Origin: Candidatus Falkowbacteria bacterium
GTDB lineage: Bacteria; Patescibacteriota; Patescibacteriia; UBA11705; JABHMO01
Assembly (NCBI GenBank): GCA_018674305.1
Contig: JABHAL010000010.1
Coordinates: 89,708 to 136,974, forward strand
Length of the DNA stretch: 47,267 nucleotides
Reading direction: 5' to 3'
Shown: in pieces, positions 15,828 to 44,679 of the stretch
Layout of the letters: every line of letters starts with the position of its first letter
Position numbering within the stretch: position 1 is the stretch's first letter
Notes under the pieces: generated by a model
What the model was told of the DNA's origin: nothing
Seen by the model: the letters and a program-made list of their open reading frames with translations, nothing else
Databases searched by the model: none
Position numbers and translations under genes: made by a program

Positions 15828-15867
15828 CCATGAAGTTATACGAGCATAGCGAGTATATACTTCATGG
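15828..15867. repeat. Palindrome that includes the CCA end of tRNA-Arg
   Basis: CCATGAAGT (15828-15836) pairs with ACTTCATGG (15859-15867), and the stem continues with TATAC/GTATA after one bulged base. Its right end is the encoded CCA of tRNA-Arg. A shorter related hairpin beginning CCATGAAGTTA lies near 15799-15820, so two such units follow the tRNA. Confidence 0.75.
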
Positions 15868-15941
15868 TGCACCCGACAGGATTCGAACCTGTGGCCTCTT
15901 CCTCCGCAAGGAAACGCTCTATCCAGCTGAGCTACGGGTGC
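15865..15941 (-). tRNA. tRNA-Arg (anticodon GCG)
   Basis: A complete cloverleaf of 77 bases with encoded CCA. The acceptor stem pairs GCACCCG with CGGGTGC. The D-arm, T-arm (ACAGG/CCTGT) and anticodon stem (TTTCC/GGAAG) all pair. The anticodon loop TTGCGGA gives anticodon GCG, reading CGC and CGU. Most bacteria instead use an ACG (inosine) tRNA for this box, so GCG is unusual. Three tandem copies of its 5' half lie just upstream. Confidence 0.95.
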
Positions 15942-16212
15942 TAAAATTGATTATGATAACTGCTCTATCCAGCCCCGAAGGGGCCCCTTTGGGGCTGAGC
16001 TACGGGTACCTAAAATTGAATATTAATTATGAATGCTCTATCCACCTACTTGTCCACCGTAGTTTTAACGAAGGTGGAAGCTACGGGTGCCTAAAATTGA
16101 ATGTTAATTATGAATGCTCTATCCAGCCCCGAAGTTAATGGAATAAACTGAGTCCCGATGATTTAACAAAGTTAAATATCGGGATCCCGACGAACGTCGG
16201 GACTACGGGTGC
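15942..16212 (-). repeat. Tandem array of three tRNA-Arg 5' halves, each invaded by a different palindrome
   Basis: Upstream of the intact tRNA-Arg, three copies of its first 25 bases (GCACCCGTAG ... GGATAGAGC) lie in the same orientation at 15962-16010, 16035-16090 and 16116-16212. They are separated by similar 20-25-base AT-rich spacers that all end CAATTTTAG (or one added G). In each copy the D-loop is interrupted. Copy 1 has an AGCCCC ... GGGGCT double hairpin. Copy 2 has a CCACC ... GGTGG hairpin. Copy 3 has two hairpins, CCCGACG/CGTCGGG and TCCCGAT/ATCGGGA. The array accounts for the gene-free stretch 15942-16283, apart from an AT-rich tail after 16213 in which I see nothing. Confidence 0.85.
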
Positions 16213-16283
16213 TAAAAAAAATTATTTAAAAAGAAACCAGAAATCAAACCTCCTTTTGTTTAATTCCTAATTTCTTTTGTGTA

Positions 16284-16836: not shown

Positions 16837-16878
16837 GCCAGAGGTAGAGACAATTCATGAATTGTCTCTACCTCTGGC
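16837..16878. repeat. Perfect 42-bp palindrome abutting a tRNA-Ser fragment
   Basis: The left arm begins GCCAGAGGTAGAGACAATTC and the right arm is its exact reverse complement, with the centre between 16857 and 16858. In minus-strand reading it begins with the last bases (GCCA) of the tRNA-Ser 3' fragment, just as the palindrome beside tRNA-Arg begins at CCA. Confidence 0.95.
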
Positions 16879-16960
16879 GGAAGGGGTGGGATTCGCCCGG
16901 CATACGCCGGGCGCCCAGCGCATGCTGGGCGAACCCACAGAACTCTTCCATAGGTTTAGC
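16875..16960 (-). pseudogene. tRNA-Ser 3' fragment with a double palindrome in its T-loop
   Basis: Positions 16875-16895 are identical over 21 bp to the 3' end of the intact tRNA-Ser(UGA) at 17275-17295, exactly 400 bp away. Positions 16931-16960 match its T-arm and variable arm at about 22 of 29 bases. Between these blocks, inside the T-loop TTCGAA, sit two tandem hairpins (16896-16930) with arms CGCCCAGC/GCTGGGCG and CCCGGC/GCCGGG. The D-arm and anticodon arm are absent, so this is not a functional tRNA. Confidence 0.8.
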
Positions 16961-30782: not shown

Positions 30783-33700
30783 TTAACCCAAATCATCTGG
30801 CTCATTGCCACCGTCACGCAAAACTTCTGCTACGGCTGCATCATCAGGAACAGGTACTTCTTCAGGAGCCTCTGCCTTGTCAGGCAGTTCAGTCGGTGGC
30901 GCTTCAAGTTTTTCAAGTTTCTCTGACTTGATAGCAAAAACTGCTCCGCTTTTCTCGTCTTTGACCTGAACCATCCCTTTTACAGTTTTCCCACCTGTGA
31001 CAACAGCCTCTTTTCCATTATAAGAGACAGTATCGTTTTTACGATAGGTATGCTGAACTGCAGGTTTCGCGGCCGCGTATTCAGTGGAGATTCTTTCAAT
31101 ATCAGCCTTATCTTCTGGATTAAGAGCTCCCATAATTCGATTATCACTAGCTATACTAGAAATTTTTGATTTCATGTTTGATTGCATCTCAGGTGGAGCA
31201 GTATCGTCACCTTCTTGGGCAATAATTGCTCCAGCCAACATGCTAACAGTTTCAGCTGAACCACCATCGCCGGAGGTTGCCACCTGAGTTATTTGTTCTT
31301 TGGTAATATCCTGTGCCATTAGCTTTAGGGCTCCAGCCGATTTACCTGCATCAATACCAAGTAACTCTTTTTTACCAGCACTCCTGGTATACTCCTGTAA
31401 AGCTGCCGCATTATCCGTACCCGGTAAAATTGTTCCTGCGTTGACTGTACCATCAGCGTTTCTTGAACCAAACGCTTCATCCAAATTTCCAGTAACTTTG
31501 GCATGCGATTTTTGAAAACCTTTTTGCTTTTTATTAACAGCTTTTAACGCTACTGCCCGTTTTTCTAATTCTTCAGCCTGTGTAACGTTACCAGCTTTCC
31601 TTGCTACTTCAGCCGCTTTTTCTACCTCTGCAATTTGTCCTTTTGGTCCGGAAAGAGCAACATTAGCATCTCCACCAGCATTAGCAATCTCCTCACTAAA
31701 GCTCGAATGTACAGTTTCGGCCAAATCAGGCATTGCAGACCTAATTGCATCACCATGTGTTTCACTTCGTTTGGACACATCTTCCAAAGTAGAAGCAAAC
31801 TTTTTATCACCCAAGGCGCTTCTGGCAGCTGCTAAAAATTCTTGATCACCAAAAGCTTCTGCATTCTGTTTGCCAACGTCAAGCTCACCTCGGTTTATTC
31901 GAGTTCGAATCCTTTGCTTCTCTTTATCATCCGCCATTGCATAGCGCATATGTAATTGATTTTTTTCCAAATTACCATTGAAAGCATCTCTTGACTCTTT
32001 GTCGCCCCCCATTAAATCATTTGCAGTTTTAGCGTACTCATCCGCCGTACGACCACCAGGTATTGGTTTACCATGCTCATCCAAATCTCCCTCTATTCCC
32101 ATTGCAGATAATTTCAAAGCTGCAGCTTTGCGCACATCCTTGCCCTGAGTTGCATCCATAAGAACTTCCTTCAACTCATCAAGCTTATCAATCCCCCTAG
32201 CTGCCAAAAATGCGTTTGCTTCTTCCAGTTTTTCTTTTTGTCTAGATTGACCTATGCGATGCGCCATAACCTCCCCCATCGGCATAGCTGAAGCGGTACG
32301 ATCCCATTGTTTTTTCATAAAACCGCCAACCTTACTTCCACCTACTCTATTTAATAGCTTTTTTGTTACATCCTTTGCTTTATTATATTTATCTTTAACA
32401 ACCGTTCCTGCTTTAGAGTCTCCTGCCTTTCCAGCTACATATCCAATTCCAGCCGCTGCTGTTGTAAATGGTAATTTCGCTATCCGAGTAGCCACATCTC
32501 CTACCTTTGCCTGAGCACCCATCACACCCTCACCAGCTCGTTTATATTTTGCTAGTTTCATTTGTTTAAATTCCTGACGACGAGCCTTGTACCCCTGAAA
32601 GGCAGCTCCAGTTTTTTCTGGTGCACCGAGAGTCATCTTGTTGGCTGTCCATTTGGCCATACTCATAGTTGATTTTTGGGCTGACTGAGCCATACTGCCA
32701 ACTACTCCACCAGCTTCTTGGGCAATCATTAAACTACCAAAAAGCAAAGCCAAACCAATAGCTGTTTGGGCCAAATTATCAATCCCAGAAGCTCCAGAAA
32801 CCGGACCACCTGCGCCTTTTTGTTCAATATCAGCCACATTTATATCTGCAACCATCTGACCAGGATCAGACAAAACTAATAAACTTAGCCACAAGAAAAA
32901 GGCCATGAATGGCCCAACTGCCACAGTCCAACCAAAACGTTGCCACCATTTAGCGGCCTCACTCTGCAATCCACCAAGTGGAACAGCTTCTAGGGTAAAG
33001 GCCAACGGTGACAAAACCACTAAAATCCAAAGCTGAACTATTCTCAAAACTAATAATACTAAGATGAAAAACGTAACTGTAATGGTCATAACCAAAATAA
33101 AAATCGCCAATAACATTCCGATAAAAACATCTATGCTAGTTACAGGAGCTTCGCCCGCTGTTGGAGCTTGAGTTACGCCTGTAGATTCACTCATATTTAA
33201 TAGTTTTGTTAGATTCAAGCCATTCACCAGATTACCACCGGCTGAAGCTGAATAACCATTAACAAAAGTCATCATAACTACTTGCCCAAAATCAATCAGT
33301 AAACCACAAATCAATTTCGAGAAATTCACTAATACCGCCACCAATACCACTCGAAACAACATCTTCGTTGGTTCATATCTCTTAACTTGCAAAATTATCA
33401 TAAAAGCAATAACCAACAAAATCATTACAAAAAACAGATTACAGACATCTCTCATCATTACCCAACCCTTGGTTACTGCAGGCGAAGTTACAAAATTATT
33501 ATATGAACTTATAACAATTAAAATTGAAAAAAGTTGCATAGCAACCCAACCTAAACCGGTGGCAAGCTGTAACAAACACCAATTTATAATATACATTAAA
33601 AAATTAGCAATACTACTAGTATCGATGGCATAAGCACTTGCTCCTATAACAAACACTCCCAACAAAATAGCAACTATACCCACTCTGAGTACGGTTTTAT

Positions 33701-33791
33701 TTTTGGGCAAAATAAAAACCTTCATAAACCGTAATACTTCTACTAGTCTATTGAAAAAGCTATTCCAAATTTTCCTGAATTGACTTTGCAT
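30783..33791 (-). CDS. VirB6/TrbL-like polytopic membrane protein with long soluble tail
   Basis: The 1002-residue protein has about seven to eight membrane helices within residues 35-375, including FFVMILLVIAFMIILQV and VLVNFSKLICGLLIDFGQVV. The stretch LRIVQLWILVVLSPLAFTLE is typical of VirB6/TrbL-type channel subunits. From 380 on it is soluble, Ala/Lys/Asp-rich and helical. Near residue 935 lies a short beta unit (YRKNDTVSYNGKEAVVTGGK ... MVQVKDEKSG) like a KOW/SH3-type module, then an acidic tail. It is the first gene of the operon, behind a clear promoter. It probably forms the membrane channel of the secretion machine. Confidence 0.82.
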   Translation of the reverse strand: MQSQFRKIWNSFFNRLVEVLRFMKVFILPKNKTVLRVGIVAILLGVFVIGASAYAIDTSSIANFLMYIINWCLLQLATGLGWVAMQLFSILIVISSYNNFVTSPAVTKGWVMMRDVCNLFFVMILLVIAFMIILQVKRYEPTKMLFRVVLVAVLVNFSKLICGLLIDFGQVVMMTFVNGYSASAGGNLVNGLNLTKLLNMSESTGVTQAPTAGEAPVTSIDVFIGMLLAIFILVMTITVTFFILVLLVLRIVQLWILVVLSPLAFTLEAVPLGGLQSEAAKWWQRFGWTVAVGPFMAFFLWLSLLVLSDPGQMVADINVADIEQKGAGGPVSGASGIDNLAQTAIGLALLFGSLMIAQEAGGVVGSMAQSAQKSTMSMAKWTANKMTLGAPEKTGAAFQGYKARRQEFKQMKLAKYKRAGEGVMGAQAKVGDVATRIAKLPFTTAAAGIGYVAGKAGDSKAGTVVKDKYNKAKDVTKKLLNRVGGSKVGGFMKKQWDRTASAMPMGEVMAHRIGQSRQKEKLEEANAFLAARGIDKLDELKEVLMDATQGKDVRKAAALKLSAMGIEGDLDEHGKPIPGGRTADEYAKTANDLMGGDKESRDAFNGNLEKNQLHMRYAMADDKEKQRIRTRINRGELDVGKQNAEAFGDQEFLAAARSALGDKKFASTLEDVSKRSETHGDAIRSAMPDLAETVHSSFSEEIANAGGDANVALSGPKGQIAEVEKAAEVARKAGNVTQAEELEKRAVALKAVNKKQKGFQKSHAKVTGNLDEAFGSRNADGTVNAGTILPGTDNAAALQEYTRSAGKKELLGIDAGKSAGALKLMAQDITKEQITQVATSGDGGSAETVSMLAGAIIAQEGDDTAPPEMQSNMKSKISSIASDNRIMGALNPEDKADIERISTEYAAAKPAVQHTYRKNDTVSYNGKEAVVTGGKTVKGMVQVKDEKSGAVFAIKSEKLEKLEAPPTELPDKAEAPEEVPVPDDAAVAEVLRDGGNEPDDLG

Positions 33792-36983: not shown

Positions 36984-37280
36984 CTAAAACCACTCCATCG
37001 ATAAATCTTCATATGCGTTATTTTCCTGCTCAATCAAAGCTCGTTTCTTTAAACTTGAACCTGCCTTTAGCTGTTTTTCACGGCAAATCGCAGACCAGGG
37101 ATCTTCAAAAACTTCATAGTACATTAATTTATTAATGTTATAACGGGCAGAAAAAGAACGCGGATACACTTTTTCTTTATGCTGATACATACGGTTACGC
37201 AAATCACTAGTCATTCCCACATAAAGCACCGAATTATACTTATTCGCCAAGATATAAACATAATAATGTTTTTGATTCAT
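36984..37280 (-). CDS. Small GIY-YIG nuclease-like protein (copy 2)
   Basis: The 98-residue protein is a bare GIY-YIG domain. YYVYILANKYNSVLYVGMTS supplies the two signature strands, DLRNRMYQHK the Arg/His helix, and YNINKLMYYEVFEDPWSAIC with REKQLKAGSSLKKRALIE the usual C-terminal helices including the Glu of the family. It lies between perfect 37-bp direct repeats (36843-36879 and 37292-37328, offset 449 bp). It belongs to the same broad family as the copy at 16976, but the two are clearly diverged. Both are bracketed by repeats, which suggests a mobile or repeat-associated gene. Confidence 0.9.
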   Translation of the reverse strand: MNQKHYYVYILANKYNSVLYVGMTSDLRNRMYQHKEKVYPRSFSARYNINKLMYYEVFEDPWSAICREKQLKAGSSLKKRALIEQENNAYEDLSMEWF

Positions 37281-40389: not shown

Positions 40390-43300
40390 CTAGTAGGTCA
40401 ATGTTCCACCAGCAACTGGTAGATTCTTTGTTAACGCATTGTCTACGTCTGTACCACCTGAATTTTCCCAGATGACACCGGCTGCTGTTACCGCGTTTAC
40501 GGCTGTTGAATTTTCCCTAACAGTAATCTTCAATGAGTCATTGGTAGTGAAACCAGTAGTATCACCAATCAATTTCAAAGTTATAGTTTCACCTTGAGGA
40601 ACCTTCACTTCGGATGATAGTTCTTCCATATATTCACCAATGCTATCTTCATTATCACCTGTAACATATGGAACCACATCCGTGTAGTCAGTATCACCAA
40701 ATGAGAAACACTGCTCACCAGCGTCTACACCAGTCTTAAGTGGAACAGATAGGTCTACATCTGCACCATCACCACCAATATCATCCCAATAAAGGACAAA
40801 CTCAGCTGGAGTGATTGTACCGTAAGTGGTCTGCAAATCGCTACTCTTTAAGATAAGATCTCCAGTAGGATCAGCATTACCCGCAACACCAGTATAGCAG
40901 AACTCTAGAACACCAATGGTAATTTCATCACCATTAGCATATAGATCGATAGCTAATAATTCACTATCATCAGATCCAGTGGTTACACCACTTGGGCTAG
41001 CAGTATTCTTTGAAACTACTAGTAAACCATCATATAAATAGTTAACATAACTAGCAATAACATTACCAGCATTTGTTCCAAGTGAGTCGATAGTTGTTTC
41101 AGTCAATACTGTTCCTGAGCTAACACCTGTAGCTACCATCTTGTAACTACCAGCGGCAGCAACACCTGCTGCGCCCCATTCAGCATCAACACCATTTACA
41201 TCACCTAGACCAATTTCTAGTGTAGCACCGTCTGATAAGTCAGCTTTAGCTGAAAAGTCTACCTTAATATCAAGGTTCTTGTACTCTGGGCTCTTTGGTA
41301 CAACCAAAGTTCCAGCAGTTAAGACAACTTTAGCATCTCCACCTGTGTCTAGTGAATATCCACCAGCATCGCCGATCAATACACCGTCAAGGTAAAGTTT
41401 AACTCGATATACATCCTGTCTAGCAGTTGCGCCAGTTGTAGCGATGTATAGTTCAGTTACATCAATTTCTTCGTTTGTTGACTGTAACTTGTAAGTCATT
41501 AGACTATTACCAGTTGCACCAGCAACATACTGTGCAGCAGAAGCTCTACCAGAAGCAGCAGTAATCTTCAATGTTCCCACAGAAGCTACAGTAGCCTCTG
41601 AACTTTCAATAGCAGTTGTTACACCACCATTGATATCAGCAGCAATCAAAGAATATCCTGAAGCTAGACCAGTAGCTACAATGTCAGCAGTTGGAGTTTC
41701 TACACCAACAAACCAAGGACCTGCAGTACTACCAGTAATATCAGCAACAACATTAATTCGAACTGTACCACCGGCAGGAATTGTTAAATTATCAATTCCT
41801 GAGAAAGTAGCAGAATCCTCAGCAGTATCACCGTCAGTAAGATTCAAATTAGAACCATACTGTGCACCAGTATCTTCATCGATCAATTTGAAACTAGTAA
41901 GGGTAGCGCTTGCAACTGAAGCGCCAGTGATACCAGTAAGGTCATCAGCTGAAATCTGAATAGAAGTAACTTTAATCTCTTCAGCAGTACCTGCTTGCAT
42001 GATCAATTTACCTAATGTTACATCATTAGCGTTTTGAACATATGTACCATCAACTGGAGCTGTTCCCATGTAAGCTGTGATTGTTGGAGCAGTTACAGTA
42101 ATTACGTTACCAACAGCTGTACCTGTCTCTGTAATATCAGCAGCAGAAAATGCACCAGTACTAGTAATATCATCAGCAGCAGTATCCATATCTAGACGAA
42201 CAGTATCAGTACTTGTAGCACCATCCAAAACGTTTCCATAAACACTAACAACTACGTTTTCTTCTTTTGGTACGTCTAATTCAAAACTGAAGCTACATTC
42301 ACCAGTAGTAGTACCACTAGTAAACGCACTACAAGTTGAACCAATCTGATCACCATTTGCGTCTGTCAAGTATACAGTATCTACATCATCAGAAAGATCT
42401 GTTGAAGCAGTACCTGTAATTACTAATTCTGAAACTAGCATGTCTTCACCAGTTGAATAAAGGTTAATGTCTGTAAAGTGAACATTTTTTGCTCCCTTAG
42501 AAACATTAGTAGCACCTGGAGAAGAAGCAGCCTTAGAAACAACCAAAGAACCGTTTGCAGCACCCTCAAATGTTTGTGCATTACCAGTTGCTACTCCAGA
42601 TAAAGTTACACCACTGGTAACATATTCATCTGAATCAAGTCCTTTAATTCTAACTAATGTGTTGGTTGTACCATTATCACCAACGTAAGCGTGAACACCT
42701 GTTTCAGTTCCAGCAAATGAAGTACTTACATCAGCGCGAACAACAACTGTTTCGTTATCTGATTTAGCTACATCAAGTAGCCCATCAGTAGTATCTTCAA
42801 AAGATACAGTAAAACTACTTACTGAACCTGAAACTGGAATTTCTACTTCAGCACCATCAACGATCTTATACAACATCCAGTTAGCAAAATCAGTGTTAGC
42901 AATACCAGCAGTACCAGCCATAATAACTCGTAATCTAGTCATTCTTACACCTTCATTTGAACCAGCTGTTAACTTATAAGCTCCCAGTTTATTACCTTCA
43001 ACACCCTTAACAAGAGTGCCTGCAGCTGGAGCATAAGCTGAATCTTGAGTTAGAGTTGCACTACCTTGACCAATAGTATTAGTCTTAGCAGATTGTGCTG
43101 AGAAAGTTGTTCCACCAGTAGTAATTAATACTTGGCCAGCTGAACTATCACCACGAGCTGCAACGTCACCAGTTTCTGCAACCTGGAAAATCAAAGTTTT
43201 GGAAACTGTGATTCCAGCAGCAATATCACCGTAAGCACAGATTTTCTTGGTCTTGCTTAGGTCGATGAAATATGGGTCTGCACTTAAATCAAAAGTAACT

Positions 43301-44679
43301 GTACCATTGCTAGCCATAGCTGCAGTGTCAGAACCTTCGATTTTGTTTGAACTTTGTTTTAGGTAAAAATTCAAAGCATCACCTGAAGATGCGCTACCAA
43401 TATTGGTTAGCATTAATGAATCAATGTGGAATCCTTCAATTGAAGAAGTGTTAAAATTCCAACAACCTAATTCTACTTCTGCTTCACCTGAAATAACTGC
43501 AGCTGAACCAGCAACAGAAGCGACGTTTAATACACCAACGCTTAAGTTTGAGAATTGCATTGCATTACCAATTACAGGTAAACCTGTAACACCTGCATCA
43601 TTAGCATCAATTTCTACTATTGATAAGTAGTCATTAGTACCAGATGGAGCAGCATCAATGTTAGCTTTTACAGATAAAACTGTATCTGCACTAACTGTCC
43701 AATTCAAGTTCTTGAAAGTTACTTTGTGAGTAGTAGTATTCAATGATTGATCATTACCAACCTGAGTAGCACCATCGTATAAACGAATAGTACCAAGATC
43801 AGCATCATAACCTAAACCAGCTCTTTGTAAAACAATTTTATCAATTTCAACAGTACCAGAAACACCTAAGTCAAATTTTGCAAATAAGACATTTTGTGCT
43901 CCCTTTGAAACGTACTGTCCTTCTGGATTACCAGAGTTCAATGAAACTGAAAGATCACCAGAAGCTACAACTGTACCAGAACCTCCACCACCACCTTGTG
44001 AAACATCAATATATGAATCAACCATAGCAGTAACATCAGCACCAGCAGTTCCCATAGCTAGGCTTGTTTCAAGTACAAAATCCCAGTCCCAGTTATTGGC
44101 ATTGAAAGCTGCTTCATCAGCAACTAGACTCCATGAACCATCAGCATTTACATAGTATGTATCAGCTGAATCTGCAGGAGATACCAATTGACCTTCTGGA
44201 TAAACAGTACCATCTAAGGCAACACCACTGTCAGTGTAGTTGGTGAATAAACTATCTGGAACATCAATAACCATTGATGACCAGTTATCACCATAAAGAG
44301 CTTTAGCAGCTGCTTCTGTTTCTACCCAGTAAAGCGCACCTTCTGGACCAACAGCGTAAACCTTTGGAACTGTAGTAATCTTAACTAACTTAGTACCTGG
44401 GCGAACCATTACGTTACCCACTAGATCGATAGCAGCTAGTTCGTCGTCAGTGACAGGAACAACACTACTAAAATCATTATACCAAGTCATGTAAGTAGAC
44501 TGCGTTGGGAAAGTATAGCGTCCACCATCAGCAGCATAAAAATATACTGCAGCGCCGCTTGCTTTAATCAAATCGCCAGCTGACAATGTAGCAGCTGATG
44601 CAACTGGAATAAAGGCACCGATTCCAACCGTCCAACAAATTGTTGTAAAAACAACAAATGAAATAAAGACTTTTCTCAT
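40390..44679 (-). CDS. Large surface-layer-like protein with repeated beta domains
   Basis: The 1429-residue secreted protein has a signal peptide (about 1-30). Next comes a module at 35-215 (YFYAADGGRYTFPTQSTYMT, LVKITTVPKVYAVGPEGALY, LYGDNWSSMVIDVPDSLF) shared with the 541-residue protein. Then at least six related beta domains of about 150-200 residues follow, recognisable by starts such as GNPEGQYVSKGAQNVLFAKF, SSPGATNVSKGAKNVHFTDI and ASPSGVTTGSDDSELLAIDL. The composition is Thr/Ala/Gly/Asp-rich and acidic with very few Cys, as in S-layer proteins. It has its own promoter and terminator and is probably the major cell-surface protein. The name is by type, not by a specific family match. 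Confidence 0.82.
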   Translation of the reverse strand: MRKVFISFVVFTTICWTVGIGAFIPVASAATLSAGDLIKASGAAVYFYAADGGRYTFPTQSTYMTWYNDFSSVVPVTDDELAAIDLVGNVMVRPGTKLVKITTVPKVYAVGPEGALYWVETEAAAKALYGDNWSSMVIDVPDSLFTNYTDSGVALDGTVYPEGQLVSPADSADTYYVNADGSWSLVADEAAFNANNWDWDFVLETSLAMGTAGADVTAMVDSYIDVSQGGGGGSGTVVASGDLSVSLNSGNPEGQYVSKGAQNVLFAKFDLGVSGTVEIDKIVLQRAGLGYDADLGTIRLYDGATQVGNDQSLNTTTHKVTFKNLNWTVSADTVLSVKANIDAAPSGTNDYLSIVEIDANDAGVTGLPVIGNAMQFSNLSVGVLNVASVAGSAAVISGEAEVELGCWNFNTSSIEGFHIDSLMLTNIGSASSGDALNFYLKQSSNKIEGSDTAAMASNGTVTFDLSADPYFIDLSKTKKICAYGDIAAGITVSKTLIFQVAETGDVAARGDSSAGQVLITTGGTTFSAQSAKTNTIGQGSATLTQDSAYAPAAGTLVKGVEGNKLGAYKLTAGSNEGVRMTRLRVIMAGTAGIANTDFANWMLYKIVDGAEVEIPVSGSVSSFTVSFEDTTDGLLDVAKSDNETVVVRADVSTSFAGTETGVHAYVGDNGTTNTLVRIKGLDSDEYVTSGVTLSGVATGNAQTFEGAANGSLVVSKAASSPGATNVSKGAKNVHFTDINLYSTGEDMLVSELVITGTASTDLSDDVDTVYLTDANGDQIGSTCSAFTSGTTTGECSFSFELDVPKEENVVVSVYGNVLDGATSTDTVRLDMDTAADDITSTGAFSAADITETGTAVGNVITVTAPTITAYMGTAPVDGTYVQNANDVTLGKLIMQAGTAEEIKVTSIQISADDLTGITGASVASATLTSFKLIDEDTGAQYGSNLNLTDGDTAEDSATFSGIDNLTIPAGGTVRINVVADITGSTAGPWFVGVETPTADIVATGLASGYSLIAADINGGVTTAIESSEATVASVGTLKITAASGRASAAQYVAGATGNSLMTYKLQSTNEEIDVTELYIATTGATARQDVYRVKLYLDGVLIGDAGGYSLDTGGDAKVVLTAGTLVVPKSPEYKNLDIKVDFSAKADLSDGATLEIGLGDVNGVDAEWGAAGVAAAGSYKMVATGVSSGTVLTETTIDSLGTNAGNVIASYVNYLYDGLLVVSKNTASPSGVTTGSDDSELLAIDLYANGDEITIGVLEFCYTGVAGNADPTGDLILKSSDLQTTYGTITPAEFVLYWDDIGGDGADVDLSVPLKTGVDAGEQCFSFGDTDYTDVVPYVTGDNEDSIGEYMEELSSEVKVPQGETITLKLIGDTTGFTTNDSLKITVRENSTAVNAVTAAGVIWENSGGTDVDNALTKNLPVAGGTLTY

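Follow-up and report, generated by a model that had tools for sequence, protein, structure and literature searches.

A double-hairpin element in the loops of leftover tRNA gene pieces across Patescibacteria

How does a double palindrome come to lie in the middle of the T-loop of a tRNA gene fragment? The question was raised by a stretch of 47,267 nucleotides from a Candidatus Falkowbacteria bacterium (assembly GCA_018674305.1, contig JABHAL010000010.1, positions 89,708 to 136,974), referred to below as the window. A sequence-only reading had described two tandem hairpins inserted in the T-loop of a tRNA-Ser fragment and had proposed, together with inserts in the D-loops of tRNA-Arg fragments, a preference of such palindromes for the apex of tRNA arms. 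We examined the locus, the stretches around tRNA genes and around model hits in the same genome, and relatives across the phylum. Individual loci and genomes are designated by L and G numbers, respectively.

The split tRNA-Ser(TGA) piece

On the minus strand and in gene order, the window contains tRNA-Ser(GCT) (17462-17373), the intact tRNA-Ser(TGA) (17366-17275), which is the only one found in the genome, a GIY-YIG endonuclease gene of 91 aa (17251-16976) and a piece of tRNA-Ser(TGA) spanning about 16963-16875. The inner part of this piece, 16963-16932, comprises the T-stem 5' strand and a decayed variable arm, with about 32 nt of similarity to the intact gene; the outer part, 16895-16875, comprises the 3' strands of the T-arm and the acceptor. 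Window positions 16875-16895 together with the sequence from 16932 on equal the T-arm and 3' end of the intact gene. Between them, the T-loop is split TTCG|A by 36 nt (16896-16931, minus strand) forming two tandem hairpins. In plus-strand coordinates, these are hairpin CCCGGCATACGCCGGG at 16896-16911 (CCCGGC ATAC GCCGGG), CG, hairpin CCCAGCGCATGCTGGG at 16914-16929 (CCCAGC GCAT GCTGGG), and CG. In the tRNA sense the arrangement reads GGTTCG|CCCAGCATGCGCTGGG CG CCCGGCGTATGCCGGG CG|A, with stems and loops CCCAGC ATGC GCTGGG and CCCGGC GTAT GCCGGG; because CG is repeated, the exact ends are ambiguous by 2 nt. A covariance model described below recognized this element (double-hairpin element, DHE) with E = 3.3e-16.

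The observation of a double palindrome in this T-loop is therefore confirmed, with one correction to the insert length. Removal of 16896-16930, the 35 nt proposed by the sequence-only reading, leaves one G too many, whereas removal of 16896-16931 restores ATTCGAACCCAC with the loop TTCGAA. Only 1 of 200,000 shuffles of the 36-mer gave two such tandem stems. The D-loop inserts in the 5' fragments of tRNA-Arg are real as well. The intact tRNA-Arg(GCG) (15865-15941, minus strand) lies downstream of three 5' fragments, all on the same strand: the nearest carries the palindrome CCCCGAAGGGGCCCCTTTGGGG (15973-15994) in its D-loop (CAG|CTG), the second (16034-16091) a palindrome in the D-arm and the third (16115-16213) two palindrome-like inserts in the D-arm. 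These palindromes belong to other sequence families but follow the same principle. 5' fragments of tRNA-Arg(GCG) with different D-arm palindromes (window 15959-16215) also stand upstream of the intact gene in two other genera of the order (L038, L044).

Split tRNA copies in the genome and its relatives

A first T-loop pattern with a short gap was too narrow and gave one chance match. We then searched for tRNA copies split by 15-200 nt around 266 tRNA genes of this genome and 80 named relatives, mostly Falkow-, Uhr-, Magasanik- and Buchananbacteria. This strict scan gave 24 chains, corresponding to 23 distinct sites, against 0 with reversed and 0 with reverse-complemented queries. Splits fell in D loops, T loops and, twice, anticodon loops. 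The absence of other split tRNA arms, which had been named beforehand as the outcome that would count against the proposal, was thus not observed: the same genome alone has more than ten split tRNA copies. Ser, Val, His and Leu copies in this genome carry the same insert family at the same T-loop base, TTCG|CCCAGCATRCGCTGGG CG CCCGGCGTATGCCGGG CG|A in Ser and Val and TTCA|GCCGGCATGCGCCGGC TG CCCGGCGAATGCCGGG CA|A in His and Leu. Genome-wide, five of six places with this hairpin adjoin tRNA genes.

A second, unrelated insert of about 100 nt (AATCGAACCAGGGATGGTAAGGG...GTGAGATT), whose left end looks like an inverted T-arm, sits in the T-loops of three 3' tRNA fragments downstream of tRNA-Glu(TTC), tRNA-Gln and tRNA-Glu(CTC) (L019, L026, L027). 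There are four copies in the genome, and no Rfam match to the insert was found in the L027 and L168 stretches. Near the fourth copy (L168, G000:C15:164426), a group I intron (Rfam RF00028, 80.5 bits; L168 1706-1959, minus strand) appears to interrupt a tRNA.

A defined family of double hairpins

The pattern GGTTCGCCCN{12,42}GGGCGA (GGTTCGCCC..GGGCGA) gave 29 matches over 380 genomes of the class. The 15 that fold as a double hairpin lie in T-loops of tRNA copies, 14 of them close to a tRNA and the other (L202) near a contig end, whereas none of the 14 that do not fold so has a tRNA nearby. Eighteen aligned elements keep the hairpins through compensatory changes, while the T-stem around them is only 70% paired. 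A covariance model including the flanks (R1) found the element in 49 of 190 genomes of the class and, at a stricter cut-off, in 26 of 380 across the phylum, including one-contig genomes such as G550 with nine model matches on the two strands. Of 85 distinct sites read from the class search and earlier loci, 75 have an intact tRNA within 600 bp, covering at least 14 amino-acid types. Several of the remaining ten are tRNA pieces near contig ends or full-length split copies such as L241 (G129:C177:612-731), a full-length tRNA-Ser with the double hairpin in its T-loop and no intact tRNA in the 1.7-kb stretch read from this 75% complete genome.

To avoid circularity, a second model (R2) was built from the hairpins only, without any tRNA flank. 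It gave 98.4% paired cells, 12 of 14 pairs with double changes, covariation of 0.556 against 0.158 in shuffles, and invariant loops ATNC/GNAT. In 20 genomes it found 48 distinct places by our count, 0-8 per genome, of which about 44 are in tRNA-derived loops. Exceptions include L301 (apparently inside a coding repeat), L268 (intergenic) and L303. The training members came from tRNA sites, so unrelated double-hairpin families elsewhere would be missed, and the window's own 34-mer type is too short for R2 at the cut-off used.

The left junction is TTCG or TTCA in 80 of 87 rows. The anticodon-loop hosts recognized are all tRNA-Ser(CGA), for example GGTCTCG|DHE|AAAACC and TTTCG|DHE|AAAAC (L229, L236, L252, L260, L273, L314). 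As that anticodon loop contains TCGA, like the T-loop, the rule is a motif inside a loop and not the T-arm as such. Some hairpins carry further hairpins in their own loops (L211, L251, L266). The proposed preference for the apex of tRNA arms is supported genome-wide and phylum-wide, although that reading had missed the GIY-YIG gene between the intact tRNA and the fragment and the fact that the T-loop family is a defined element with a fixed junction (TTCR|A), distinct from the palindromes in the D-loops.

Two recurrent layouts

In the first layout, the leader and 5' part of the tRNA, with the DHE in its loop, are followed after a few nt by a GIY-YIG gene on the same strand and then by the intact tRNA. 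A GIY-YIG gene lies between the split copy and the intact tRNA in 16 of 22 such sites and in 4 of 4 anticodon-loop sites near tRNA-Ser(CGA). The latter had appeared as opposite-strand sites because the element is nearly symmetric, and were re-read as anticodon-loop insertions in the usual layout. The start codon is usually 11-50 nt after the hairpins. In the second layout, the intact tRNA is followed after 5-100 nt, rarely more, by the T-stem with the DHE and the 3' end; here a GIY-YIG gene lies between in only 2 of 46 sites, one being the window. Both layouts can occur at one tRNA (L211, L314). Inner boundaries cluster at the arm: 27 of 41 downstream copies match the tRNA for at most 10 nt inward and 12 of 14 upstream copies for at most 9 nt, whereas the outer side is usually complete. 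Full-length tandem duplication followed by random decay was therefore rejected as the general rule, although L037 and L088 show full-length copies. Within this genome, D-loop palindromes follow the same plan, as at tRNA-Glu, where a 5' fragment with a D-loop palindrome, a GIY-YIG gene and the intact tRNA succeed each other (L027; see also L070).

DISPLACEMENT

In the relative G002, the intact tRNA-Ser(TGA) is followed by CCAGAGGTAGATGC..GCATCTAC and then by the next conserved gene. In the window, that kind of flank (CCAGAGGTAGAGAC..GTCTCTACCTCTGG) and the same gene follow the DHE piece and not the intact tRNA. The flank includes a perfect 42-nt palindrome (16837-16878) that begins with the tRNA's terminal GCCA; its counterpart in G002 abuts the intact tRNA, which marks the original 3' flank. 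The DHE piece is thus most simply the original 3' end, pushed aside, and the 3' end of the intact tRNA is inferred to be the newly acquired one. This comparison rests on one locus, and the flank palindromes are similar, not identical. Perfect palindromes often begin within the last bases (CCA) of tRNA genes in these genomes: 52 of the 266 examined have a perfect stem of at least 8 bp starting there, a count obtained without a control.

GIY-YIG proteins and other genes

The protein encoded at 16976-17251 matches PF01541 (E = 9e-15) and contains the GIY, YVG, R and E motifs. Its nearest solved structures are UPF0213 proteins and, weakly, SLX1, a structure-specific nuclease. Five of the eight small GIY-YIG genes of this genome adjoin tRNA genes. 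A second GIY-YIG gene in the window (37062-37265, minus strand) has no tRNA near it and groups with two other non-tRNA GIY-YIG genes of this genome. In a tree of 45 short proteins, twenty, all DHE-linked (including L209, which lies by a DHE), form a clade with support 90/93. Inside it, the five from tRNA-Ser(CGA) anticodon-loop sites, from three host families, form a 100/99 clade. This is what would be expected of target-specific homing lineages, but the alignment is short, and the window's enzyme falls outside the clade of twenty.

Two IS200-like Y1 transposase genes of the genome are flanked by their own, different terminal hairpins (GCCTGG...CCAGGC), and a third, longer and RAYT-like gene has none of this type; none of the three is flanked by this DHE (L062, L063, L064; G000:C13:118914, C4:118156, C4:303861). 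Two very large reading frames of the window (30783-33791 and 40390-44679, minus strand; 1002 and 1429 aa) gave no Pfam match at 0.001.

Origin of the element

We consider it somewhat more likely than not that the feature is one copy of a family of site-specific selfish DNA elements living in tRNA genes of Patescibacteria. In this view, the core is a 34-40 nt double hairpin inserted after YTCR and before A in a tRNA-gene loop, either the T-loop of any tRNA or the anticodon loop of tRNA-Ser(CGA), and the fuller form carries a 90-aa GIY-YIG gene directly behind the hairpins. Insertion would split the tRNA gene and be tolerated because the event also supplies a second copy of the lost half, so that one intact tRNA results and the split half is pushed aside with the hairpins in its loop. 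In the window, the original 3' half of tRNA-Ser(TGA) would have been displaced by a GIY-YIG gene plus a new 3' half. Most likely the GIY-YIG enzyme, or else an unknown one, cuts tRNA-gene or hairpin DNA, perhaps as an extruded hairpin, and repair copies in the DHE with or without the enzyme gene (homing-like) and duplicates one tRNA half; selection would keep only events that leave an intact tRNA, and solo double hairpins would be non-autonomous remnants or hitchhikers. The data establish the location, junction, constrained structure, layouts and GIY-YIG linkage, and the displacement at one locus only, whereas the enzymology, including cleavage and the movement of the hairpins by GIY-YIG, and the way in which the duplication forms are inferred, no transposition event, cleavage or expression having been observed. 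The scarcity of GIY-YIG genes in the downstream layout shows that the enzyme is not needed at most sites today. A simple homing model has one real difficulty: the restored tRNA still has the TTCRA loop, so a nuclease cutting that motif alone would cut its own host, and the true target must be larger or structural. A bolder view, that this is a new class of mobile element, spread across a bacterial phylum, in which a GIY-YIG endonuclease recognizes a double DNA hairpin and inserts it at YTCR|A of tRNA-gene loops, rebuilding the tRNA gene on the way, is not excluded but remains tentative.

Among the alternatives, a REPIN-like palindrome moved by a Y1 (HUH) single-strand transposase that prefers hairpin loops after TTCR, with GIY-YIG genes merely sharing the tRNA neighborhood, is unlikely but has some support. 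The second hairpin is close to the reverse complement of the first (GTCATTCGAC / GTCGAATGAC), as in REPINs, the genome has three Y1 transposases, and insertion 3' of a fixed tetranucleotide fits single-strand transposases. However, the hairpins at the Y1 genes do not match, there is no GTAG or CGTC tag, the copies are few per genome and almost only in tRNA loops, and GIY-YIG genes adjoin the hairpins. Slightly less likely still is a process without a dedicated enzyme, in which template switching or microhomology repair spreads the hairpin from one tRNA to another through the universal T-loop sequence GGTTCRANTCC and only events that leave an intact tRNA survive. The flanks GG..CC and the T-loop are nearly identical in all tRNAs, inner homology is short, and hairpins stall replication; yet the anticodon-loop copies in tRNA-Ser(CGA) lack the GGTTCR/ANTCC flanks but keep TCG|A, and the consistent position of GIY-YIG directly behind the DHE would be unexplained.

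A functional RNA, kept as a regulatory leader or processing signal that for instance controls GIY-YIG expression as the hairpins before phage T4 segB and I-TevI do, appears improbable. Hairpins do precede most GIY-YIG start codons by 11-50 nt, and T4 segB has an upstream translation-controlling RNA structure (PMC2988022), but most DHEs have no GIY-YIG gene behind them and the tRNA part decays while the hairpins stay. An intron was rejected, as no intron match was found in the window at Rfam gathering scores, most copies are truncated and an intact tRNA coexists. Although most genomes are metagenome assemblies, an assembly artefact, or ordinary decayed tRNA duplicates with chance palindromes, is refuted by the presence of the element in one-contig genomes and in many unrelated assemblies, by the empty controls and by covariation.

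Relation to known systems

Phage T4 SegB is a free-standing GIY-YIG homing endonuclease encoded between tRNA-Arg and tRNA-Ile, shown to favor inheritance of the tRNA region, with an RNA structure upstream of its start codon (PMC2988022; see also PMC13096335). The small GIY-YIG gene with its motifs between tRNA sequences is shared, but SegB sits between intact tRNA genes and targets the intergenic region of a phage, not a chromosome, and neither split tRNA halves nor a double hairpin in a tRNA loop has been described for it. The double-hairpin elements of Allomyces mitochondrial DNA (Paquin et al. 2000, as cited in PMC4478555 and PMC5910586), which are considered mobile, and yeast mitochondrial GC clusters are likewise short G+C-rich hairpin elements with signs of mobility and no gene of their own. 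The present element shares the two tandem G+C-rich hairpins of tens of bp; the mitochondrial elements are not described there as tied to tRNA loops with a fixed YTCR|A junction or to a GIY-YIG gene. REP/REPIN palindromes share the inverted pair, the conserved loops and insertion beside a short motif, but REPs are typically high-copy, extragenic, GTAG- or CGTC-tagged and tied to RAYT transposases (PMC3733652, PMC2817692), whereas here the flank is TTCR from the tRNA loop, the internal joint is CR, the copies are few and in tRNA loops, and the neighbor is GIY-YIG. Integrative elements that recombine into tRNA genes also leave a displaced 3' tRNA end and a restored intact tRNA; in the present case there is no integrase, only a GIY-YIG gene lying between the tRNA and the displaced end, the inserts are tens to hundreds of bases, the displaced loop carries the hairpins, and 5' halves are displaced too. 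The element thus fails the tested REP criteria, resembles the mitochondrial elements in form and SegB in partner and location, and we assign it to none of them. Searches of the open literature, which left out subscription papers and preprints, for GIY-YIG with tRNA in Parcubacteria/CPR, palindromes in T-loops and REPIN with tRNA genes found nothing on point.

tRNA genes are essential and about the worst place for a small element to jump into. A family that has specialized in their loops, at one fixed base, across a phylum of streamlined bacteria shows a way for selfish DNA to live inside essential genes, namely to break the gene but bring or copy the missing half. For annotation, it is a warning that many tRNA pseudogenes and T-loop fragments in these genomes are element footprints. 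If the GIY-YIG enzyme is the mover, this gives the common but unexplained small GIY-YIG genes of Patescibacteria a job and makes hairpin-loop targeting testable in vitro.
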